DNA from: an uncultured Nitrospiraceae bacterium
GTDB lineage: Bacteria > Nitrospirota > Thermodesulfovibrionia > Thermodesulfovibrionales > Thermodesulfovibrionaceae
Direction of reading: 5' to 3'
Assembly: GCA_937139565.1 (NCBI GenBank)
Contig: CAKZQH010000015.1
Coordinates: forward strand, 1 to 45,021
Length of the DNA: 45,021 nt
This document shows positions 1-12,313 of the stretch, piece by piece. The notes under the pieces were generated by a model. That model did not search any database and was not told where the DNA came from. It saw only the letters and a program-made list of their open reading frames with translations. Positions within the stretch are counted from its first letter, which is position 1. Each line of letters starts with the position of its first letter. The translations under genes and the position numbers were made by a program.

Positions 1-448
1 ATTCAGGCTGGTTGTGCAGAGGTGGAAGAAAGAGCAGATAGATTTATTTGATAGCGAGCCTTATTGTTACCATGTGATAGCAACTGACAGAGAAAGTTCA
101 GCAGAAGAAGTTGTATGGGAGTATAACAAGCGGGGGCAGATGGAGAATATCATTAAGGAATTAAAGAACGGGATAGGGATGGAGAGTTTACCCAGCGGAG
201 AATTTGGGGGAAATGCGATGTGGTTTTGTCTTGGAGTGCTTGCATATAATGTTTTTGTTTTGAAGAGGGAGCTTATTTTACCGCAAGAGTATAAGAACAA
301 GACTATAAGCACAATAAGGTGGTTTTTTATAGAGATAGCAGGGAAAATGGTAAAACATGGCAGAAGGCTATGGCTTCATGTATCAACCACAGTTGAGAAA
401 TTTAATCTTCTACTTCATATAAGAAAAAAAATAATGGCATTTGTATAA
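1..448 (+). mobile_element. IS1380-type transposase, C-terminal part (cut by window edge)
   Basis: The reading frame is open from base 2, so the protein enters from the left of the window; the GTG at 14 is just an internal codon. The visible ~148 residues resemble the end of an IS1380/IS4-type DDE transposase: a YNKRGQMENIIKELK segment (Tyr, Arg, Glu and Lys of the last catalytic block) and a following hydrophobic stretch (GGNAMWFCLGVLAYNVF), and a basic tail. Such enzymes cut and paste their own element. The final catalytic Glu is present (MEN). The stop at 446-448 is followed by an AT-rich gap before aroE; I could not find the element's terminal inverted repeat, so its right boundary is unknown. 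Whether the copy is intact cannot be judged here. Family assignment is from recognised motif pattern only. Confidence 0.72.
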
Positions 449-1595: not shown

Positions 1596-2534
1596 ATGAT
1601 TTTTGGTATTGAAATAGAAACATCATCAATTAAGATAGCTCAGGTAGGTAAAAAATATGAGCTTCTAAATTGGGAAATCATCGATGTTCCAGAGGGAGTA
1701 TTATCAACAGAAGGCGTTCTTGACATTGATGCTCTTGTAAAAAATATTTCAAAGATTCTAGTTAAGTTTGAAGTAAAAAATCCTCAGGTAGCATTTGCAG
1801 TTTCAGGTCCAACAGATACAGCGGTCAGAATTTTAAAGCTTCCCTACATTGGTAGAGATGAGATTGAAACAAATCTTCCATTTGAACTTGACAAATATAT
1901 TCCTTTCAACGTTAAAGAAGTTTATTACGATTTTCACATATTGAATCAATCAAAGGAGAAAGGGTTTTCAGAGATTCTTGTAGCTGTAGCAACAAAAAAA
2001 ATAATAGATGAATATACTACTATTTTTGAAAAAGCAGGAATGTCTCCTGTTTTGGTTGACATTTCAGCTTTAGCGCTTTATAATTTGTATGAACTAAATT
2101 ATTTAGATCATCATGCTGTTGTAGTTATCAATATTGGAGAAAATTTCATTAATTTTGCAATAGCTAAAAAAAATATGCCCCTTTACATTAGAGATAGCAC
2201 AAATGCTTTTGATATGAAGATGTTCAAGGATAATGAGAATGAGATAAGAAATTTTGCTGATGAAGTGGCTTCAGAAATATATAGACAGATTGAATACTTT
2301 AAAAGCTTCATGGCAGAAGAAAATGTCAAAAAGATATATATTACTGGGTATCCTACAATTTATCCTGTTTTCATCTCCTCTTTGCAAGAAAGACTTGATC
2401 AGGAAATTTTACTCTTCGATCCCTTTAGAAAAATTAAAATAAACAAAAAAATAGAAGCAAAAATGCAAAAATATGCTCACCTATCAGCTGTCTCTATTGG
2501 TTTATCCCTAAGAGGAACGGAGAAGATAAAATGA
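1596..2534 (+). CDS. pilM: Type IV pilus assembly ATPase-like protein PilM
   Basis: Cytoplasmic actin-fold protein that binds the N-terminal tail of PilN and couples the inner-membrane platform to the assembly motor. The 312 residues open with FGIEIETSSIKIAQV, the phosphate-1 strand typical of PilM, and contain the second actin-like domain segment with VVVINIGENFINFAIA (about 170-185). The length is slightly below the usual ~350. The start is the ATG just after the strong promoter. It overlaps pilN by 4 bases (ATGA), indicating translational coupling. It is first of the conserved pilM-N-O-P-Q order, which makes the assignment firm. Confidence 0.93.
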   Translation: MIFGIEIETSSIKIAQVGKKYELLNWEIIDVPEGVLSTEGVLDIDALVKNISKILVKFEVKNPQVAFAVSGPTDTAVRILKLPYIGRDEIETNLPFELDKYIPFNVKEVYYDFHILNQSKEKGFSEILVAVATKKIIDEYTTIFEKAGMSPVLVDISALALYNLYELNYLDHHAVVVINIGENFINFAIAKKNMPLYIRDSTNAFDMKMFKDNENEIRNFADEVASEIYRQIEYFKSFMAEENVKKIYITGYPTIYPVFISSLQERLDQEILLFDPFRKIKINKKIEAKMQKYAHLSAVSIGLSLRGTEKIK

Positions 2535-3151
2535 TAAAGATAAATCTTCTTCCCAAAAAAGATACTAAAAGGTCAGCCTCAAGAGATGCTGGGGTTGAAA
2601 TTTCAAAAGAGAGTTTTATTAAATTAGCATTGCCTTTGTCAATAACTTTACTCTTAATTTTAGCAGTTTTTGCTTACATAGAAATAAGTAAGAAGCAACT
2701 TAAAAATGAAATAGAAAGAAATAAAAAAACCTTTATAGAACTTCAAGATAAAATTGAGCAGGTAAAAAACTTTGAATCAATGAACAAGGAGATTGAGACT
2801 AAAACCAAGCTTATCGAGAACCTAAAAAATAAGCAACAGGTACCCCTTATAATTCTTGTCTCAGTAGCTAAAAATTTACCTGATGGTGTTTGGCTAACAG
2901 AATTGTCTTTTGGTATGCCTGATAAAAGCCAATCTGGAAGATCTTCTGACAAGGAAACAGAGAAGTTAGCAGAGAAAAATGTAATAACTGTAAAGGGTTT
3001 TGGTTTTTCTAATTTGAATATTGTCTCTTTCATTGAATCTTTAAAGAAAGTTTCTGAATTTACCGATATTAATCTTGTAGAAACTCTGCAAGCTGAATAT
3101 GAGAAGGTGCCGGTATATAGATTTGTTTTAAATTTCAAAATAAGGGATTAA
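2531..3151 (+). CDS. pilN: Type IV pilus inner-membrane protein PilN
   Basis: Bitopic inner-membrane protein of the alignment complex. The N-terminus MIKINLLPKK carries the conserved INLLP motif that docks into PilM. One membrane helix follows at about 31-52, then a charged coiled coil (about 55-90) and a small periplasmic ferredoxin-like domain up to residue 206. Length and layout are standard for PilN. It overlaps pilM by 4 bases and is one base from pilO, so the three are probably made in stoichiometric amounts. Confidence 0.92.
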   Translation: MIKINLLPKKDTKRSASRDAGVEISKESFIKLALPLSITLLLILAVFAYIEISKKQLKNEIERNKKTFIELQDKIEQVKNFESMNKEIETKTKLIENLKNKQQVPLIILVSVAKNLPDGVWLTELSFGMPDKSQSGRSSDKETEKLAEKNVITVKGFGFSNLNIVSFIESLKKVSEFTDINLVETLQAEYEKVPVYRFVLNFKIRD

Positions 3152-3152
3152 A

Positions 3153-3779
3153 ATGGAGATTGGTAGTATTTCAAAGAGAAATAGAATTTTATTGATGATA
3201 GTTTTACCGCTGGCACTAATCATGGTTTTTTATTCGTTTTATTTTAATGATAATTTTGAATCTTTAAACAAATTAAAAAATGAAGCTCAGACCATCAAAA
3301 ATGATATAAATAGAGCAAATCAAATTATAGCAAAGTATGAACAAATAAAAGCTGCTAATATTGAATTGCAAAGAAAGATGGAATACTTAAAAACCCTATT
3401 GCCAATGGAAACAGAAGTTTCATACGTATTAAGAAAAGTGTCAGAACAGGGTATTCAGAAAGGATTACAAGTTACACTTTGGAGGCCTAAGGGTAAAATT
3501 GTTCATGAATCTATGGAAATTTACGAGATACCTGTAGAAGTTAGAATGAAAGGTAAATATCAGACGTTTGGGTCATTTTTCGCTGAAATAGCAAAAATTG
3601 AAAGAATAGTTAACATTAACAGTATCCATTTAAAGGCAGGAAATATCGATGACAGAGGTGAAATTAAGTTAGTAGGAGATCCTACGAATCTTAATGCTGA
3701 GTTGGTAGTTACTACTTACTCATTAATACCTGAGGAAGAAAAGAAGAAATTAAAAGAGGAGAAAGCGAAGAAACAATAG
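3153..3779 (+). CDS. pilO: Type IV pilus inner-membrane protein PilO
   Basis: Partner of PilN in the periplasmic alignment complex. It has a single membrane helix at about 12-31 (ILLMIVLPLALIMVFYSFYF), a coiled coil at about 38-80 and a C-terminal ferredoxin-like domain (about 85-190) that ends in a very lysine/glutamate-rich tail. At 208 residues it is normal for PilO. It abuts pilP with no gap: the stop ends at 3779 and the pilP ATG starts at 3780. Confidence 0.92.
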   Translation: MEIGSISKRNRILLMIVLPLALIMVFYSFYFNDNFESLNKLKNEAQTIKNDINRANQIIAKYEQIKAANIELQRKMEYLKTLLPMETEVSYVLRKVSEQGIQKGLQVTLWRPKGKIVHESMEIYEIPVEVRMKGKYQTFGSFFAEIAKIERIVNINSIHLKAGNIDDRGEIKLVGDPTNLNAELVVTTYSLIPEEEKKKLKEEKAKKQ

Positions 3780-4286
3780 ATGGATAAGAAGAAAATTTAT
3801 TTATTAATATTTTTGTGTGCGGTTTTAATATTTTATGTACTATATAATCTTACTCTGAAGCAGAGCTATGTTGAAAAGAAAGATGTAATTACCCAAAAAA
3901 CTGTTCTGCCTTCAAAATTGGAAAAAAGTACTAAAGAGGGACCTCAGGAAAAATTTTCTATTTATGAATTAGTGAATTTAAAAGATCCATTTCAACCACA
4001 AATAATAAGAAAAGAGCTTAATAAAGGTTTATCACCACTTGAGAGTTATGATATTGAGGAGCTTAAGCTTATGGGTATTGTAAGAGATAATAGAGGCTTC
4101 AGCGCTTTAATTAAAACACCTGATGGACGACACTTTGTTGTGAGAGAGAAAGATAAAATAGGATTACATGGAGGACATGTGAGTAGAATATCTAACGATA
4201 ATATAGAAATTAAAGAATATACTAAATCATATACGGGTGAAGTTTTACTAACAAAAAAGATTTTGAAATTAAGATCGGAGGAGTAA
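3780..4286 (+). CDS. pilP: Type IV pilus assembly protein PilP
   Basis: Links the PilN/PilO complex to the PilQ secretin across the periplasm. The 168 residues have an N-terminal hydrophobic segment (about 5-25), a flexible region with the LKDPFQP motif typical of PilP (about 72-78), and a C-terminal HR-type beta domain (LKLMGIVRDNRGFSALI onward). Classic PilP is a lipoprotein; here the only early Cys (residue 13) is preceded by Leu rather than a small residue, so a lipobox is not convincing and the protein may stay anchored by its helix. Order and motifs make the call secure. Confidence 0.9.
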   Translation: MDKKKIYLLIFLCAVLIFYVLYNLTLKQSYVEKKDVITQKTVLPSKLEKSTKEGPQEKFSIYELVNLKDPFQPQIIRKELNKGLSPLESYDIEELKLMGIVRDNRGFSALIKTPDGRHFVVREKDKIGLHGGHVSRISNDNIEIKEYTKSYTGEVLLTKKILKLRSEE

Positions 4287-4288
4287 CT

Positions 4289-6442
4289 ATGATAAAAAAG
4301 AGTATTGTTTTAAACGTCTTCATTTGGATATTTTCATTGATCTTATTTACCTCATATTTAGAAGCTGGAGAGATAACTTCAGTTGATTTAGAAGGTTACA
4401 ATCTTAAGATAAAAATTTCAGAAAAATTTGAATATAAAATCATCCCTCAAGAAGACCCATTTAAAATTAAAATTGAACTTTATAACACTGAGCCTGGAAT
4501 TCTCAAGAAAAAAATGCTTTTTCATGAAGGAATTGTAAGTGAAGTCTCTGCTCATTTAATGGATAAATTATGCATGATAGAAATTTTATTATCTGAGCCT
4601 ATTGAAGCAGAGATAACTTCTGAAGGAGAAAATTTGGTTATTTCATTTGATTCAGATAAAAAAGCAGATAATAAAATAACGGCCGATAAAAGGGAGTCAA
4701 AAATAATAGACATTCTCATGGAAAAATCTGAATCCGGATATGAGATATCAATTTTAGGAGATGGTGATATTCCTGAACCAAAGGTTGTGAAAGATGAAGG
4801 ATTGGTGAATTTGATATTTTCAGATGTAGTGATAGATACAGAGCCATCAAAGGATATACCAGTTTTCTTTAAAAAAGAAGGTAACAAATTGCTCCTTAGC
4901 TTTCAAATAGAAAAAGGAGCAGAAGCAGATGTAATGTATTTCGGAGATGAAATCCTTTTGAAGGTTAATAAGCAAGATACATCAGATAAAAAGAAAAATT
5001 TAAAAATAGAAGCTTTAGATAAAAAAATAGAATTAACCTCAGAAAATCCAGCGCCTAAAGAGAAAACAATATCTCTTGACCTGCAAGATGCTGACCTCGT
5101 AGGTGCTTTCAGGTTGCTTGCTGATGCAGGAGGATACAATTTAGTAGTTCATCCAAATGTACGCGGTAAGGTTACCTTAAAACTTAAAAACATACCTATA
5201 TTGAAAGCTTTTGATATAATTTGCAGAAATTACAATCTTATTCAACTTGAAGATGAAAATTTTATTAGAATAATTCCAGCTGATGCCTATCTTATTGAGC
5301 TTGTACTTGAAAAAAGAGTAACGAAAATTTACAAGCTCAAGCATGTTAGACCTTCAGAGATTATTAAGAGAACAGAGGAAATAAGAACTGTACTTGCTGA
5401 TGCGAGAATATTTCAATTTTTCAATATTGAGACAATACAATTACAGGAGCAAAAAGATAAGTTAGATGTTCTATTTCCTTATAAGGTTACAGAAATTAAA
5501 GAAAAAACCGAGACAGAAAGAAGTATAAGATATAAAACTGCCACTGAGGAGAGAGAGGAAAAATATGTTAAGATCATTGGTATAGCTATAGATGAAAGAA
5601 CTGGTTCCCTTGTTATAAATGCTCCTGTCTCAATGCACAAAATCATAGAAGATGTTATAGCTAAAATAGATGTTCCACAAAAACAAGTTTTATTTGAAGC
5701 AAGGATTATAGAAGTAAGTAGTTCCTTTTCTAAAAGTTTGGGATTTGAATGGGGAATTAGATGGTCTCCACCGGATTCAAGAACAACAATAGTAGGTTCC
5801 CAAGCTGGAACTATAGCAGGCGGAACAACACCGGTTGCCATTAATTTACCTGCCTCCACTGGAAATGTTAGCACTTCATCTTCAGCTTTCACCTTAGGCT
5901 ATATAAATGCTTCAGGAACATTTGCACTTGATTTAAGAATTTCAGCTTTACAGCAATCAGGTAAAGGAAAGGTCGTAGCAAATCCTAAAATAATTGTGAT
6001 GGATAACCAAATAGCAAGAATTACACAGGGAGAAACAGTTCCCTATGCAGAAAAGGTTTTAACAGAAACAGGATATGATATAGCAACTTCTTTTAAAGAT
6101 ATTGGGATAGCTCTTTCTTTAACTCCAAGAATAATAGATGAGGAAAATTTAAATGTTTATCTGTATTTTGAAAAGGAAGAATTAATTGGTTTTAGAGAAA
6201 TTGCCACAAATATTTTAGCACCACAAACTGTTAAACTTTCTGGTAGCACTGAGGTTAAAGTAAAAGATGGAGAAACTCTTGTCTTAGGCGGAATTTATAA
6301 AAAAATAGATAATATTACAGATTCAAGGGTTCCCGGGCTGGGAGATATTCCATTAGTTGGAGAGCTTTTTAAGAAGACTGGAAGAGATGAGAATATTTAC
6401 GAGGTATTAATTTTTATTACTCCAAGAATTCTTAAAAATTAA
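4289..6442 (+). CDS. pilQ: Type IV pilus secretin PilQ
   Basis: Outer-membrane pore for the pilus fibre. The 717 residues begin with a signal peptide (to about residue 26), then two AMIN-like beta domains (about 28-110 and 140-220) that bind peptidoglycan, an STN/N0 domain (about 262-320, ISLDLQDADLVGAFRLLAD), an N1 domain with an unusual charged insertion (about 370-430), and the secretin core (about 460-715) ending with VPGLGDIPLVGELFK and a terminal FITPRILKN. Its Shine-Dalgarno site GGAGG lies just upstream at the pilP stop. This is the last gene of the pilMNOPQ set. Confidence 0.95.
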   Translation: MIKKSIVLNVFIWIFSLILFTSYLEAGEITSVDLEGYNLKIKISEKFEYKIIPQEDPFKIKIELYNTEPGILKKKMLFHEGIVSEVSAHLMDKLCMIEILLSEPIEAEITSEGENLVISFDSDKKADNKITADKRESKIIDILMEKSESGYEISILGDGDIPEPKVVKDEGLVNLIFSDVVIDTEPSKDIPVFFKKEGNKLLLSFQIEKGAEADVMYFGDEILLKVNKQDTSDKKKNLKIEALDKKIELTSENPAPKEKTISLDLQDADLVGAFRLLADAGGYNLVVHPNVRGKVTLKLKNIPILKAFDIICRNYNLIQLEDENFIRIIPADAYLIELVLEKRVTKIYKLKHVRPSEIIKRTEEIRTVLADARIFQFFNIETIQLQEQKDKLDVLFPYKVTEIKEKTETERSIRYKTATEEREEKYVKIIGIAIDERTGSLVINAPVSMHKIIEDVIAKIDVPQKQVLFEARIIEVSSSFSKSLGFEWGIRWSPPDSRTTIVGSQAGTIAGGTTPVAINLPASTGNVSTSSSAFTLGYINASGTFALDLRISALQQSGKGKVVANPKIIVMDNQIARITQGETVPYAEKVLTETGYDIATSFKDIGIALSLTPRIIDEENLNVYLYFEKEELIGFREIATNILAPQTVKLSGSTEVKVKDGETLVLGGIYKKIDNITDSRVPGLGDIPLVGELFKKTGRDENIYEVLIFITPRILKN

Positions 6443-6451
6443 AATTCTTAT

Positions 6452-7096
6452 ATGCGCATTCTCCTCATAGAGGATGACCGAATTTTAGGTGAAACTCTAA
6501 AAGATTACCTATCACTAAACGGTATAGATACTGTCTGGATATGGGATGAAAGAGAACTTCCAAAAATAATAAAAAAATATGAATTCGATGTATTAGTTAT
6601 CGACCTTATTTTAAAATTTACCTCTGGAGAGAACATAATTTCAGCCCTAAGAAACTCAGGAATTCAAGATCCTATCATTGTAATTACTGCGAAGAGAGGA
6701 ATAAATGATAAAGAAAATTGTTTTTTAAGGGGAGCTGATGACTATCTTACCAAACCATTTGATTTAAAGGAATTCCTTTTAAGACTAAAAGCTTTAAGTA
6801 AGAGAAAACATTTAGAAAGCATAATAAAAATAGGTGATATTGTGATCAATCTTGATGCTAAGACCGTGCACCGAGGAGATAAAGAGATTAAACTTTCAAA
6901 AAATGCCTGGGAGTTACTGTCACTATTAATTAAAAAAAGAGGAGAGGTGGTTGATTCTGAAACTATTCTTAATTATATTTGGCCTGATAGAGAGGTCGGA
7001 GAAGAGATTGTAAGGGCATATATAAAAGAATTACGCAAGATACTTCCATCGGACAGTATAAAAACCTATCCTGGTAGAGGTTATAGATTAATTTGA
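6452..7096 (+). CDS. OmpR/PhoB-family response regulator
   Basis: DNA-binding regulator of a two-component pair. Receiver domain (about 1-115): acidic pocket Asp8/Asp9, phospho-acceptor Asp51 (VIDL), Thr79 and Lys101 (LTKPF) are all present, so it should be phosphorylated. A winged-helix domain (about 125-214) ends in the characteristic YPGRGYRLI. The gene starts 9 bases after pilQ and overlaps the kinase by 4 bases (TTGA). Its position between pilQ and pilA suggests, without proof, that it controls pilin expression or twitching. This differs from the NtrC-type PilR known in Pseudomonas and Geobacter relatives. Confidence 0.9.
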   Translation: MRILLIEDDRILGETLKDYLSLNGIDTVWIWDERELPKIIKKYEFDVLVIDLILKFTSGENIISALRNSGIQDPIIVITAKRGINDKENCFLRGADDYLTKPFDLKEFLLRLKALSKRKHLESIIKIGDIVINLDAKTVHRGDKEIKLSKNAWELLSLLIKKRGEVVDSETILNYIWPDREVGEEIVRAYIKELRKILPSDSIKTYPGRGYRLI

Positions 7097-7932
7097 AGTT
7101 TCAAGTTAAAATCATTCTTGCATTTACACTTGTAATGAGTGTAATTCTCTTTTATATGAATATAACCATAATAAATTTTGTTTCAGAAATAAAAGCTGAT
7201 ATTATCATTGAAAAAAAGAATAGTCCTAATCTAGAAGAATTTTTAGAGTTGCAATTTGATGAATATTTAAAGAATATGATTTTATGGGAACTACTCTTGG
7301 TATTAACACTAATGCTAATTCTTCACAAAATTGTTGATTACATGACTAAAAGAGAAAATCAGTATAAAGATTTTTTAGAACTTGTCCTTCTAATAGTATC
7401 TCATAGGTTCGGAAATTTTCTTGCTGCACAAAGGGGCAATATTGATATTCTGAAAACAAAACATGATCAAAGGGCTCTTGATAGACTTGAGAAAAGTTAT
7501 AATTTTCTTCATGATGACATAAATAGAATCATGGATAATATAAATCGTTTTAAAGAGTTTTCCCCAATTAAGGAAAAAATCAACCTCAAACATATACTCG
7601 AAAAAGTTTTAAATGTTATGACCATATCTAGACCGCTGAAAATATTCTCAGAAAATGTGACGATTTATGGAAATTCTCAGATAATTGAAAACATAATTCT
7701 CTCGTTATTTGAAAATGCCGTTAAGTATTCTAAGGAAAGCATTAAAATAAGACTTACCACGAGTTACTTAGCCATCAGAAATGATGTATCCCCTTCGGAT
7801 GTATCATATTCACATAAAAAAGGTTCAGGAATAGGTCTTAAAATTGCTGAAGCTCTGGCAAATAAAGAAGGATACAAAATTAAATACCGATTAAAAAACG
7901 ATCATTTCATCGTTCTGTTTAAATTTAGATAA
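7093..7932 (+). CDS. Membrane histidine kinase, atypical H-box
   Basis: Sensor kinase partner of the preceding regulator. The start is a TTG overlapping the regulator stop. It has two membrane helices (about 7-30 and 62-80) enclosing a short ~30-residue periplasmic segment, so no real sensor domain. The probable phospho-acceptor is His104 in VSHRFGNFLA, which lacks the usual E-x-R-x-P after the His. The ATPase domain has an N-box with Asn208 (LFENAVKYS) and a G-box GSGIGL (244-249), while the Asp-rich G1 box is replaced by RNDVSPSD. At 279 residues it is short. Likely a kinase, but of an uncommon subgroup. Confidence 0.85.
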   Translation: MKFQVKIILAFTLVMSVILFYMNITIINFVSEIKADIIIEKKNSPNLEEFLELQFDEYLKNMILWELLLVLTLMLILHKIVDYMTKRENQYKDFLELVLLIVSHRFGNFLAAQRGNIDILKTKHDQRALDRLEKSYNFLHDDINRIMDNINRFKEFSPIKEKINLKHILEKVLNVMTISRPLKIFSENVTIYGNSQIIENIILSLFENAVKYSKESIKIRLTTSYLAIRNDVSPSDVSYSHKKGSGIGLKIAEALANKEGYKIKYRLKNDHFIVLFKFR

Positions 7933-8257
7933 ACTATGCTTACCTTTTTTTGTTTACCCTAAATTTCAACTAAAGTTTTATTTATGTGTATGGAGAGATA
8001 TTTCAGATCTTGCTTTTCAATCCAAGGTTTTTTTGGGGCTAATTGGTTAGAGTTAGAGCTTTTATTACTTCTACGATTTAAATATCCCAATCAGTCTTTT
8101 ATTTTTCTTTTATTATGCCCCTTAATTTTTATTATAATTTTAACTTTTCACGAAATTTTCACAACCTTTTGGATTATTTTTTATAAAATTTTATTAAGAA
8201 AATTTATGCTAAAAGTGGCTTCCTTTGGAAGCTCTAATTAAAAGAGGAGGTTTAAAG
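7933..8257 (+). other. pilA upstream region with 5' leader hairpin
   Basis: AT-rich gap before pilA. An 85-codon frame at 7984-8241 is rejected as a gene: it is hydrophobic by composition only and has no ribosome-binding site. The region holds the pilA promoter (8158-8187), a second possible -10 TATAAT at 8133-8138, and a GCTTCC-TTT-GGAAGC hairpin at 8218-8232 that would sit in the mRNA leader just ahead of the ribosome-binding site. Confidence 0.5.
8158..8187 (+). promoter_or_regulatory. Candidate pilA promoter
   Basis: TTCACA (8158-8163), an 18-base spacer and TATAAA (8182-8187); five of six bases match the consensus in each box. It would give a leader of about 60 bases containing the hairpin at 8218-8232. 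I see no -24/-12 sigma-54 site, which controls pilA in several other bacteria. Confidence 0.5.
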
Positions 8258-8650
8258 ATGAAAAGATTATTCATTCGGGAGCAGAAAGGATTTACCCTAA
8301 TCGAACTACTCATTGTTGTAGCTATCATCGCAATTCTTGCAGCCATAGCTATTCCTCAATTTGGTAAGTACAGAAAAAGAGCTGCAGCTGATCAGGTTTT
8401 ATCTGATGCAAGAAACTGTGTCACAGAAGTTGTTGCCGAAATAACCAGGGCTCAAATGGCTGGTCAAAACCCCACCACATTTTCATTCAACAATACTTCT
8501 CCAAATACTTCTACCTGCACCATTACAGCTGAAGCACCATATGATACTGTAACTTGTGCTTGCACAGGACAAAATGCAGCTGCAGGAGTTACATGCACAG
8601 TTACCCAAACAACTACTGGCTCAAGTGCTAAATGTACAGGAGTTGATTAA
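8258..8650 (+). CDS. pilA: Major type IV pilin PilA
   Basis: Structural subunit of the pilus. I start at ATG 8258, which has an ideal GAGGAGG (8244-8250) seven bases upstream, rather than the in-frame TTG at 8225. The product is 130 residues: an 11-residue basic leader ending KG, cleavage before [22 protein letters not shown], Glu5 of the mature protein present, then a short globular domain rich in Thr, Asn and Ala with several Cys that can form disulfides. A strong terminator follows at once. Size and the single long N-terminal helix fit the short class of bacterial pilins. Confidence 0.93.
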
Positions 8651-8680
8651 AAAAAGGAGGGCGAATGCCCTCCTTTTTTT
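8649..8680 (+). terminator. Strong intrinsic terminator after pilA
   Basis: Perfect 14-base stem: ascending arm 8649-8662, loop GAAT (8663-8666), descending arm 8667-8680 ending in seven T. It starts inside the pilA stop codon and ends 9 bases before the next pilin gene, so it should limit read-through from pilA into the minor pilins. Because the A-run and T-run also pair, it could work in both directions. Confidence 0.9.
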
Positions 8681-8689
8681 AATAATAAA

Positions 8690-9151
8690 ATGGTAAACAA
8701 AAGATTTGATAATGGTTTTTCACTTGTTGAATTACTTGTTGTTATAGGATTGATTGCTATTTTAGCATCAGCGGCAATTCCTCCTATAACTAAATATTTC
8801 AGAACATACAAGTATATTGAGTATGCAACTTCAATGGAAAATCTTGTCCGCTGGGCAAGGCTTACAGCAATTGAAAGAACAGTTAATGTTGGTTTATGCA
8901 TACAGGGGAATACTCTCCAGATTATTAATATGGGAGCTAACAGAACAAATATATGCTCAGGAAGCGTGATTAATTCACTACAGATAACCCATAATTTTGT
9001 CAGCCTTTCTGGTGCTGGCGCTGCTTTTGACCCGAAAGGATTTGCAATTTTTGATGGTAATGTCTGCGTAACAAATAATTCAGAATTTTATAGGGTTAGA
9101 ATAAGTAGGTTTGGAGCAATAAGAACAGAAAAAGGAACGGGTGGTTGTTAG
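8690..9151 (+). CDS. Minor pilin, FimT/GspH-like
   Basis: Type IV pilin-like protein of 153 residues: a 9-residue leader ending NG, cleavage before FSLVELLVVIGLIAILASAAIP, mature Glu5 present, then a beta-rich domain. The pattern (an early helix, a segment like YATSMENLVRWARLTAIERTVNVGLC, and a C-terminal RISRFGAIRTEKGTGGC) matches the FimT/GspH class of initiating minor pilins. No Shine-Dalgarno site precedes it because the terminator arm occupies that place; translation may be weak or use read-through mRNA. It overlaps the next gene. Confidence 0.88.
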   Translation: MVNKRFDNGFSLVELLVVIGLIAILASAAIPPITKYFRTYKYIEYATSMENLVRWARLTAIERTVNVGLCIQGNTLQIINMGANRTNICSGSVINSLQITHNFVSLSGAGAAFDPKGFAIFDGNVCVTNNSEFYRVRISRFGAIRTEKGTGGC

Positions 9152-9539
9152 CTTGAGATATAGAAATTATTTTATTAATGAAGAAGGCTTTTCCTTGGTA
9201 GAAGCAATAATTTCCGTTCTCTTAGTCGCTCTATTAGCAATGGGAATTGCTGGAATGGTAGGAACTTTTGCGAGAACTACTCAGGAAGATTTAATTAATG
9301 TGTGCTTAGTTCAGGCAGCCATCTCAGGAATTGAAGCAAAAAGAGCAAATATTTTCTTGAATTCTTTAAATGTATCCTGCGGAGCATATACGGTGAATGT
9401 AGCATTGAGTGGAAATCCTCCTGCCAACCCTCCAGATACTGGGTCAGGAGTAAGTGCTTGTGTTACTGTGACAGCCACAGCAACAATTGGAAGCAGAAGT
9501 ATGATAATAAGGGATAAAATATGCAATCTACCAGCTTAA
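9141..9539 (+). CDS. Minor pilin, PilV-like
   Basis: Small pilin-like protein (132 residues from GTG 9141; 128 from the alternative TTG 9153). The leader ends EEG, cleavage before FSLVEAIISVLLVALLAMGIAG with Glu5 present. The sequence after the helix (TFARTTQEDLINVCLVQAAISGIEAKRAN) resembles the PilV/PulI class. GTG 9141 has AAGGA four to five bases upstream, so I keep it, though the choice is open. It overlaps the preceding pilin by 11 bases and the next by 19 bases. Probably part of the priming complex with its neighbours. Confidence 0.85.
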   Translation: MVVSLRYRNYFINEEGFSLVEAIISVLLVALLAMGIAGMVGTFARTTQEDLINVCLVQAAISGIEAKRANIFLNSLNVSCGAYTVNVALSGNPPANPPDTGSGVSACVTVTATATIGSRSMIIRDKICNLPA

Positions 9540-10480
9540 GAAGAAAATTAAATAGCTTTCATAAATTATATAATTCATCAAAAGGTCTTACTTTAGCTGA
9601 GATAATGATAGCTATTGCAATAAGCATAATTATTCTTGCTGCAGTAACATCACTTTACTATACCAGTGATAGAGTATTCAAGAGAACAAAATCTTCGGCA
9701 GATGTAAAGGAGATATTAAAACAGGGCATGGCAGGCCTTGAATGGATTTTCCAGAGATGGGGAACTGCTACTCCCTGTAATGATCCAACTGGTAACAATC
9801 AGTGTTCAGTAATAAGAGACTGTAGGATAGCTGGAAGTTATAATTATCCTCCACCAAGTAGTATGTGCTTGACAATAATAAATGGTAATCCATGTGATGA
9901 AGTTATTTTTTATGGTAGCCTTTATGGTAATGGTTTTGTTGATAGGGTATCTGGCCCAACTTCTGTAGCTCTTATGAGTTGTAGACTTTCGACAGAGACA
10001 AATCAAAATTGTTACCATTTAAAAAGAGGAGGGCAATTTATTAGAGATACTCAAAACAATAATGTAGTGTTAATATTTAGCATATCTGGATTGGGTTCAA
10101 ATAATCTTGAATGTATTAATGTGAATGGTTCTTCAAATACATCGGCAAGTAGAGTTGTTACTGCATTGAATGGTAATTTAAGAGATGCAAATAATAATTT
10201 AACTCCTTTTATGAATCTTGAAGGTGGAGATCTTTTATTACGAGTACCTCATCTAATAAGGCTATTCTGTCAGTTTAACCCTCAAGACGGTAATACTCTT
10301 TGGTTATACATGCAGGCAACTGATATGTCAGAAGATTGCAATGCTAATGAAAATCCACAACCAATCATGCCTGTTAATTCTTTTATTGCTGAACAATTTG
10401 GACAGGGGATAAGAATAACTACTCAAGTAAGAGGTCCTGATAACAATTTTATGACTGTTCAGAGATATTTTGGGAGATAA
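9521..10480 (+). CDS. Minor pilin, PilW-like
   Basis: Larger minor pilin (319 residues). A 22-residue leader ends SKG, cleavage before LTLAEIMIAIAISIIILAAVTSLYY with Glu5 present. Like PilW/GspJ proteins, a long beta-rich, Cys-containing domain follows the N-terminal helix. There are many Asn and paired Cys, suggesting disulfide-stabilised loops exposed outside the cell. It overlaps the PilV-like gene by 19 bases and is 3 bases before the PilX-like gene. The order FimT-PilV-PilW-PilX is the conserved minor-pilin order. Confidence 0.87.
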   Translation: MQSTSLRRKLNSFHKLYNSSKGLTLAEIMIAIAISIIILAAVTSLYYTSDRVFKRTKSSADVKEILKQGMAGLEWIFQRWGTATPCNDPTGNNQCSVIRDCRIAGSYNYPPPSSMCLTIINGNPCDEVIFYGSLYGNGFVDRVSGPTSVALMSCRLSTETNQNCYHLKRGGQFIRDTQNNNVVLIFSISGLGSNNLECINVNGSSNTSASRVVTALNGNLRDANNNLTPFMNLEGGDLLLRVPHLIRLFCQFNPQDGNTLWLYMQATDMSEDCNANENPQPIMPVNSFIAEQFGQGIRITTQVRGPDNNFMTVQRYFGR

Positions 10481-10483
10481 GGT

Positions 10484-12313
10484 ATGAACAACAGAGGATA
10501 TTCTTTGGCAACAGTTCTTGTTCTTTCAATGATTATATTTGTTATAGGAGGAGCAGGGTTATACATCGCTACTACAAATCTTAAAACAACGGCTGCAGAT
10601 GTCAGATTCAATTTCGCAGATAAAGCATCAAATTTTGGAATTCTTACTGCAGTAGATGATATTAATAGAATAGGCTTTTGTGCTAATACAACAAATTCAG
10701 GAACAGTTGGGAATGCAAGTTATACAACAAATATAAGAAGAAGTGGAAGAATTTGCTTTGTAAGGTCGACAGGCACAATGAATAATGCAAGGGTTGTTAA
10801 AACCTCTATAATTCAGTCTTACTATGGATTGGGACTTTACACCGTTAGAGGAAATGTAAATGCCACATTGGGAGGAACGGGTGTTAGACTCTCAGGATGT
10901 GATAGAAGTATTACACCCACCTGTTTTATGCCTGCTTTTATAGCCTCTGGTAACATTACAACAACAATTCAGCAGAGAGCATGTGGAAATGATACAGGAA
11001 GTACAGGGCTTTATGGAAACCCAGCTGTTTTACCAAATGTAATTTTCGATGACCTTATTCCCTTGTTTTTCAATGTGAACTGTTTTAATAAATATGCACC
11101 TACAAATAGTTGCACAAGTCCAAGCGATGTATCTCTTCTTGAGATATTTCGAGATGAATTCACAAGAATCAATTCGCTTACAAATTCTCGAGAAGCAACA
11201 TTTAACAACGCTCAAGGAATTCCTGTGCTTGACATGACAAATATTATAACTCAGGCTCAGAGCCGAGAAAACAATGTTTCTACATCCTGTCGCTATGGAA
11301 CCCAACCAGCCCAGACAACCTTGAATCTGTCAAATCAATTAACAAACTGTAGTGAAATCAGAATTGAAAGTGCTACTACAACAATTACAGGTACAAGAAG
11401 TGGTGCTCCTGTTACAATTTATGCTTTTAGAGGAACAGGGGGGTTAAATTTTAATAATACTGGTATTAATCCTCAATGGGTTACAATATATACTAATAGA
11501 CAGCTAACCGTATCTAATGCTTCTAATTTCACCTTATATACTAATAATACTTCAACTCTTAACAATAATATTGGAGAGAGTGATAGTAATAATCCAGCAA
11601 CTGTAAGTTTTAGGGTTCTCTCAACAAATACTGTTACTACAGGTGCAGGTGTGGTTTTAAGGAACGGCACTATTATAATTGCTCCTACCGATGTTAACGC
11701 TACAAATTCAAATACTGCACCTCAAAATCTTGTAGCTAGTGGTAATATTACCTTAGATGATGTAGCTCTTTTTACCAGGAGAATTGCCTTCTCTGCGAAT
11801 AGCACGGCTAATTTATGGAATTCTGTCATATATGTATACGCCTATGCTTGCCCTAATTGTTCACGAACATCAAGTACTTCTTCATTAAATGCATGTGATT
11901 CAGATCAAGGATGGTGCGGCTGGACAGGAAGCGGAATTACCCTTAATCTAGGTAGAAATCCTTCTGATGTCAATATAGAACAACCTACTATTTTTATTTC
12001 AAATAATACAACTGTTAGAACAGATAGTCCTGCAGCCACATACATATGGGGTGCATGGGTAGGAGAGGATGTAACTTATTTAAGATGGACTGGGACTACA
12101 ACTACTCAAAATTTTAGAGGTTTTCTTATAAGGAATTTTCCAACCAATCTCACTCTTACCATAAACATAAGTAGTAATTTCAATATGGAATTTAAAAAAT
12201 CTCTACTTGATAAACTTTCTCAAAAATATTGGTGGTTCAGGAAAGTGGACTGTGTATTAGATGATATGTCTCCATTAACCCAATTAATTCAAACTCGAAT
12301 GTCAGCTTATTGA
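10484..12313 (+). CDS. Large PilX-like minor pilin, possible tip adhesin
   Basis: A 609-residue protein with a class III-like start: 5-residue leader ending RG, then YSLATVLVLSMIIFVIGGAGLYIA. Mature residue 5 is Thr rather than Glu, as in PilX/GspK-type pilins that need no Glu5. The remainder is a very long extracellular part rich in Thr, Asn and Ser with many Cys, including a CPNC pair (about 458-461) and CDSDQGWCGW. It ends with QKYWWFRKVDCV, like the closing strand of PilX-family proteins. Usual PilX is about 200 residues, so this is about three times longer. With no pilY1 nearby, it could serve as the tip adhesin; that is inference. Confidence 0.83.
   Translation: MNNRGYSLATVLVLSMIIFVIGGAGLYIATTNLKTTAADVRFNFADKASNFGILTAVDDINRIGFCANTTNSGTVGNASYTTNIRRSGRICFVRSTGTMNNARVVKTSIIQSYYGLGLYTVRGNVNATLGGTGVRLSGCDRSITPTCFMPAFIASGNITTTIQQRACGNDTGSTGLYGNPAVLPNVIFDDLIPLFFNVNCFNKYAPTNSCTSPSDVSLLEIFRDEFTRINSLTNSREATFNNAQGIPVLDMTNIITQAQSRENNVSTSCRYGTQPAQTTLNLSNQLTNCSEIRIESATTTITGTRSGAPVTIYAFRGTGGLNFNNTGINPQWVTIYTNRQLTVSNASNFTLYTNNTSTLNNNIGESDSNNPATVSFRVLSTNTVTTGAGVVLRNGTIIIAPTDVNATNSNTAPQNLVASGNITLDDVALFTRRIAFSANSTANLWNSVIYVYAYACPNCSRTSSTSSLNACDSDQGWCGWTGSGITLNLGRNPSDVNIEQPTIFISNNTTVRTDSPAATYIWGAWVGEDVTYLRWTGTTTTQNFRGFLIRNFPTNLTLTINISSNFNMEFKKSLLDKLSQKYWWFRKVDCVLDDMSPLTQLIQTRMSAY

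Follow-up and report, generated by a model that had tools for sequence, protein, structure and literature searches.

A predicted OmpR-type two-component system controlling type IV pilin genes in Thermodesulfovibrio through a TTCAC direct repeat

The control of pilin genes is mostly explained by the PilS-PilR two-component system together with sigma-54. In the window, i.e. the whole stretch of 45,021 nucleotides analysed here, which comes from the heat-loving genus Thermodesulfovibrio, a two-component pair of the OmpR type is instead situated between pilQ and a candidate major pilin gene, pilA (Table 1). This raises the question of which regulator acts on pilA, and from what kind of promoter. 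On the basis of the sequence comparisons reported below we consider it probable (roughly 0.78) that the pair constitutes a dedicated local switch for type IV pilin expression, operating via a TTCAC repeat and a sigma-70 -10 box.

Table 1. Annotated and predicted features around the two-component pair (positions in the window)
Feature	Position	Strand	Support
pilM-pilN-pilO-pilP-pilQ, pilus assembly genes	1596..6442	+	Pfam PilM_2, PilN, PilO, PilP and Secretin over cut-off; same order in genus loci
OmpR/PhoB-type response regulator (RR)	6452..7096	+	Pfam Response_reg and Trans_reg_C; genus conservation
Histidine kinase (HK), two transmembrane (TM) segments, TTG start	7093..7932	+	HATPase_c weak; fold and motif comparison
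pilA, candidate major type IV pilin, predicted target gene	8258..8650	+	Pfam N_methyl; kept beside the kinase in 10/12 other genus loci
Minor pilin genes, FimT/GspH-, PilV-, PilW- and PilX-like; possibly co-regulated	8690..12313	+	
Predicted operator: TTCAC-N6-TTCAC as a direct repeat with a period of 11 bp	8147..8162	+	Exact in 11/11 HK-pilA intergenic regions
Predicted -10 box TAAAAT, 37 bp after repeat start, no -35	8184..8189	+	
Conserved pilA-leader hairpin of the GGYTTCCTTYGGAARCC type	8217..8233	+	In 11/11 leaders, at a distance of 25-29 nt from the pilA start

Both genes of the pair are real and lie where the initial annotation had placed them. Across the 12 other genus loci that were fetched the RR identity is 68-79% and the HK identity 46-53%, and the two are therefore not chance open reading frames. 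The kinase was detected in 13 of 16 genus genomes (own genome counted), the three without a detected kinase being 56-68% complete. The distribution of the pilQ-RR-HK order, proposed earlier as a check, turned out to be genus-wide: pilMNOPQ is followed by RR and then HK in 12/12 other loci, although in L042 the contig ends within pilM. By search the aroE gene precedes in 10 of the 12, the exceptions lying at contig ends, and it is visible in every locus except L042, as a piece in L037. Directly after the kinase comes pilA in 10/12 of these loci; the exceptions are L039, with a YajC-like gene, and L042, with an unrelated gene. Kinase starts were picked by rule, as the start codon nearest the alignment start, and with these the TTG start of the kinase overlaps the RR stop (TTGA) in 13/13 genus loci, which suggests translational coupling at a low level. 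The pilA start codon is the ATG at 8258, following AGGAGG, and the regulatory stretch is hence 7933-8257. At the start of the window (14-448) a C-terminal remnant of a transposase-like gene was seen by eye.

The regulator is of the winged-helix type, as had been claimed: both its Pfam matches, to Response_reg at 65.5 bits and to Trans_reg_C at 59.5 bits, score over cut-off, which places it in the OmpR/PhoB family, and the receiver carries E7, D8, D9, D51, T79 and K101 ahead of the winged-helix C-terminus. The Sigma54_activat domain of PilR-type regulators is absent by Pfam. A tandem direct-repeat operator is expected of the OmpR/PhoB family, and a conserved repeat of this kind, our predicted operator, is present before pilA.

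Specifically, TTCAC-N6-TTCAC is exact in 11/11 loci where pilA follows the kinase and is absent after the kinase in the two loci without pilA there. In approximately 5 of the 11 loci the kinase gene reaches into the first TTCAC box, and there coding constraint alone could preserve part of the box. The stretch 8100-8250, guessed earlier as a region for footprinting, contains the repeat. A CRP/FNR-like reading of TTCAC/TGTGA was rejected; CRP sites are inverted repeats and the repeat here is direct. In the own genome the only exact match to the 17-position pattern is the repeat before pilA. Scanning the genus with YTCACRNNNYTTTCACR gave 21 matches, compared to 2 for the reversed pattern (own genome, 1), distributed as 13 before pilA, four at the PilY1 operon, two at the minor pilin operon (one of these in opposite orientation), one unrelated and one at a contig edge. 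Seventeen of the pilus-linked matches were already known before the scan and shaped the pattern, and four matches were new. Among the new ones, the sites in G005 and G001 are the two decisive ones: in these genomes pilA lies away from the kinase, and the repeat is found upstream of the relocated pilA (L099 and L107). Moreover, G009 carries a separate repeat upstream of its minor pilin operon.

At 18 of 20 sites the distance from the start of the first TTCAC to that of the best -10 hexamer is 37 or 38 bp. Within this set of 20, two sites (second pilin and mannosyltransferase, see below) have one repeat mismatch, three PilY1 sites start with CTCAC, and the spacing had already been fixed when the mannosyltransferase site was detected. 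Matches to TTGACA 17 bp upstream of the -10 box reach at most 3 of 6 bases, and a promoter scan of this strand found no complete sigma-70 promoter. Judged from these features, the promoter layout is that of a class II activator overlapping the -35 region, PhoB-like and of sigma-70 rather than sigma-54 type. PhoB at the pho box is an OmpR-type regulator bound to an 11-bp head-to-tail repeat that replaces the -35 element. The predicted system resembles PhoR-PhoB in these respects and differs from it in the half-site, TTCAC, in its targets and in its divergent kinase.

Two further structures may act after initiation. In the pilA-leader hairpin the left arm, CUUCCUU, is complementary to the Shine-Dalgarno sequence, and alternative pairing with the latter might provide a translational switch. 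Just after pilA (8656-8680) there is a strong GC hairpin with flanking A- and T-runs, terminator-like by eye, which could set the ratio of pilA to minor pilins; it was not called by the terminator scan because its T-run pairs with the A-run. No Rfam family scored over the gathering threshold in 6000-9200.

Is pilA nevertheless under the control of a canonical PilS-PilR system with sigma-54, the OmpR-type pair serving some other purpose? Such control operates in many bacteria, as described in PMC6058289, and the own genome encodes 12 strong sigma-54 activators (at least 197 bits). The promoter argues against it: none of 13 intergenic regions scanned has a conserved GG-N10-GC (-24/-12) element before pilA, in agreement with what had been noted from the window alone, and a conserved sigma-70-type -10 box lies instead at a fixed distance from the repeat. 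The best match to the 12-position sigma-54 pattern in the window (9/12) overlaps the repeat and is without the GG, and 9 of 200 shuffles reached it; in L037 the best match again falls on the repeat, and 0 of 200 shuffles reached it. Sigma-54 control of pilA was rejected on the grounds that the 13 regions are without a conserved site. A canonical pilSR elsewhere acting on pilA, which by the initial annotation would have spoken against its reading, was not found: no sigma-54 activator is present on the window contig (C15), on the pilB contigs (C13 and C48) or on that of the second pilin (C17). The genome does hold the 12 activators, one of them on C11 approximately 29 kb from pilT. Taken together we regard PilSR control of pilA as very improbable, and an OmpR-type rather than an NtrC/sigma-54 regulator likely controls pilA.

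The pair thus predicted to control the major pilin gene is in this sense like PilS-PilR of Pseudomonas aeruginosa and others. According to PMC6058289, PilS is a kinase with six TM segments and PilR binds together with sigma-54, in contrast to the two TM segments, winged-helix regulator and sigma-70-type promoter here. The Thermodesulfovibrio pair works like PilSR and is not a member of it, because it has neither the sigma-54 domain, nor the sigma-54 promoter, nor a six-TM kinase.

The predicted regulon in the own genome extends beyond the locus. A second pilin (contig C17, L164:4606-5040), selected through its Pfam N_methyl match, which by eye lies upstream of CRISPR-cas-like genes, is preceded by a repeat with one mismatch and has TATAAT at +37. 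The one-mismatch pattern without a -10 box was uninformative in the own genome (24 matches vs 30 for the control). With the -10 box added, the own genome gave 4 matches vs 0 for the control, i.e. pilA, the second pilin, a mannosyltransferase and one unrelated place, and the genus gave 19 vs 1, of which 13 are pilus-linked promoters and six are unrelated to pili. This third target encodes a 423-residue PF11028 TMEM260-like putative protein O-mannosyltransferase (contig C105), and it is the only pilus-linked site among the seven new matches of the genus scan with the -10 box. A PF11028 protein is encoded directly after pilA in G010 (L110), and PF11028-like N-termini were recognised by eye after pilA, or after a following second pilin, in L095, L098, L102, L107, L108, L109 and L113.

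It could be argued that the repeat is a real pilus operator bound by another regulator, and that the adjacent pair is merely co-inherited. Binding by the RR is inferred from co-occurrence, and the own genome has 43 receiver domains. The order-wide control speaks against this: when the same pattern was run against 81 genomes of the order, 24 matches fell outside the genus (three of which had no locus), and 0 of the 21 inspected contexts were at pilin or PilY1 genes, while it is pilus promoters that the repeat marks in genomes encoding a kinase of this family. In addition, an 11-bp direct repeat suits an OmpR-type dimer. We therefore consider another regulator unlikely, though less so than PilSR.

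The kinase is unusual. Its Pfam HATPase_c match is weak (17.8 bits, below the 26.4 cut-off), and the window kinase has no Pfam HisKA match; HisKA was matched in 3 of 23 relatives, with a best E-value of 0.016. An AlphaFold model (mean pLDDT 80, pTM 0.55) matches the DHp-CA part of CpxA in the PDB (Foldseek E-value 1.8e-11). H104 aligns with the CpxA H-box histidine, and an N-box (207-213) and a G2 box (244-249) are present. CpxA and AdeS, both HisKA-type, share this fold, but here the H-box is H-[RK]-x-G-N and not H-E-L-R-T, and at the G1 Asp position every one of the 23 aligned sequences has Asn (N230 in the window kinase). Relative to CpxA and AdeS, approximately 20 residues of the F-box/ATP lid and the G1 glycines, and thereby the DxGxG motif, are likewise missing. 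The uncommon H-box HRFGN of the initial annotation is borne out; the window kinase reads SHRFGN, with K instead of R in the 22 other aligned sequences. Also the near lack of a periplasmic part was correctly perceived, since only about 26-35 residues separate the two hydrophobic segments (1-31 and 58-82).

The residues at H+1, H+4 and G1 have roles in kinase and phosphatase activity. Given the weak motifs, kinase activity appears uncertain and a phosphatase bias is possible. The protein might accordingly be mainly a phosphatase, or degenerate, with the RR phosphorylated elsewhere or active unphosphorylated. The change of the acidic H+1 residue to R/K, Asn at H+4, N230, and the ATP lid about 20 residues shorter than that of CpxA (model confidence below 50 at 236-242) favour this, as against the retention of H104, N208 and the G2 glycines 246 and 248 and of a kinase gene that is kept and coupled to the RR in 13/13 genus loci. 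We judge it a real possibility, with the odds against it, and it is compatible with the pair being the local pilin switch.

As to what the kinase senses, the initial annotation suggested the membrane or the pilus platform itself. All 23 rows of the alignment share N23 and E66, two polar residues located within or close to the TM helices, which fits with sensing in the membrane. PilS contacts PilA in the membrane, according to PMC6058289. By analogy with PilS, the most plausible signal may be the state of the pilin pool or of the pilus platform in the inner membrane, a speculative suggestion to which we give rather low odds.

The pair also has a sister. Eight genus genomes encode a paralogous kinase with 31-37% identity to the window kinase, and the regulators paired with these kinases share 58-65% identity with the window RR; the own genome gave one kinase match only. 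In six of the eight stretches (L043, L045-L049) the sister pair precedes genes for a small secreted protein, a PilY1-like protein of approximately 1245 residues (Pfam T4P_PilY1, checked for L047) and minor pilins, and in five of these six, not L046, the gene directly upstream is groEL, as recognised from its sequence. L044 (T. sp. N1, G008) has the paralogous regulator split in two frames (7182-7821) and no PilY1 in the stretch, possibly a decayed copy, and the L050 stretch is cut by a contig end. Allowing one mismatch, no site was found in four of the eight paralogue loci, one of these being cut by a contig end. The small secreted protein directly before PilY1 in L048 (5025-5315) has no Pfam match, and similar small proteins precede PilY1 in operons of Desulfurellales and Syntrophobacterales.

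With the kinase sequence alone no relative was found; an alignment-based search gave 25 loci and extended the range of the kinase to Aquificota, Desulfurellales, Syntrophobacterales, a deltaproteobacterial MAG and Ca. Magnetobacterium-like Nitrospirota. The pair adjoins pilins in L071, L074 and L075, the last being near PilY1 too. In 13 other kinase-bearing genomes a looser pattern gave 14 matches vs 7 for the reversed control, so that single matches are weak; 8 of the 14 are at pilin, PilY1 or PilY1-position promoters (six of these new) and 6 are not pilus promoters. G303 and G305 each have one site before an operon of the small protein-PilY1 kind, and G310 has two; in G313 sites precede two large secreted proteins and one minor-pilin operon, and in G311 a pilin. 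PilY1 is confirmed by Pfam for L191 (G305) and L075 (G310); the protein in G303 and both large ones in G313 gave no PilY1 match and are named only by position and similarity. PilY1/minor-pilin operons in Desulfurellales and Syntrophobacterales are thus preceded by similar sites. A good TTCAC repeat also lies in L123 (G305:C72) ahead of two genes, by eye a small PqqD-like one and another of uncertain type.

Before pilins in seven other genomes, a same-strand search found 0 matches in 30 upstream regions, and a second look at both strands of the same regions found four, in Aquificota only. In each case the pilin with the best score is preceded by a repeat in reverse orientation, which is exact in G307-G309, a group of close relatives to be counted as one event, and carries a single mismatch in G302. 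Over the 30 regions approximately 0.03 exact matches in this orientation are expected. G304, G306 and G314 carry the kinase and have no such site at the pilins examined, showing that the operator rule is not universal; many genomes with the kinase have no such site.

We propose that the kinase, anchored in the inner membrane by two helices, would set the phosphorylation of the RR at D51, and that a phosphorylated RR dimer would bind the two TTCAC boxes head-to-tail, the repeat replacing the -35 element. The bound RR would then recruit sigma-70 RNA polymerase to the -10 box located 37-38 bp from the repeat start, in a PhoB-like manner. In the own genome the predicted targets are pilA, the second pilin and the TMEM260-like O-mannosyltransferase, and in many relatives a sister pair would serve the PilY1/minor-pilin operon. 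The latter recalls FimS(AlgZ)-AlgR, in which AlgR is a LytTR-type regulator. In PMC5979040 and PMC8787478 this system is described as controlling the fimU-pilVWXY1Y2E minor-pilin/PilY1 operon. As there, a separate two-component system is predicted for the PilY1/minor-pilin operon; the difference is that here both systems are sister OmpR-type pairs with the same operator type. Hence Thermodesulfovibrio seems to do the jobs of both PilSR and FimS-AlgR with sister OmpR-type pairs. Our literature search, with subscription papers mostly beyond its scope, returned nothing on this pair or operator.

More tentatively, and with the balance of probability against it, pilus control of this kind may have evolved independently and extend over several phyla: one sister OmpR-type pair for pilA and pilin glycosylation, the other for the PilY1/minor-pilin operon, both with the same TTCAC direct-repeat class II promoter, and a nearly lid-less two-TM kinase that reads the pilin pool via polar membrane-helix residues. 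For experiments, the analysis offers a DNA site short enough to be tested directly, together with a minimal two-TM kinase whose ATP-site motifs are unusual. If true, a second wiring of this kind across Nitrospirota, Desulfurellales, Aquificota and deltaproteobacterial MAGs, with its predicted operator, regulon and kinase family, would mean that pilin homeostasis evolved more than once.
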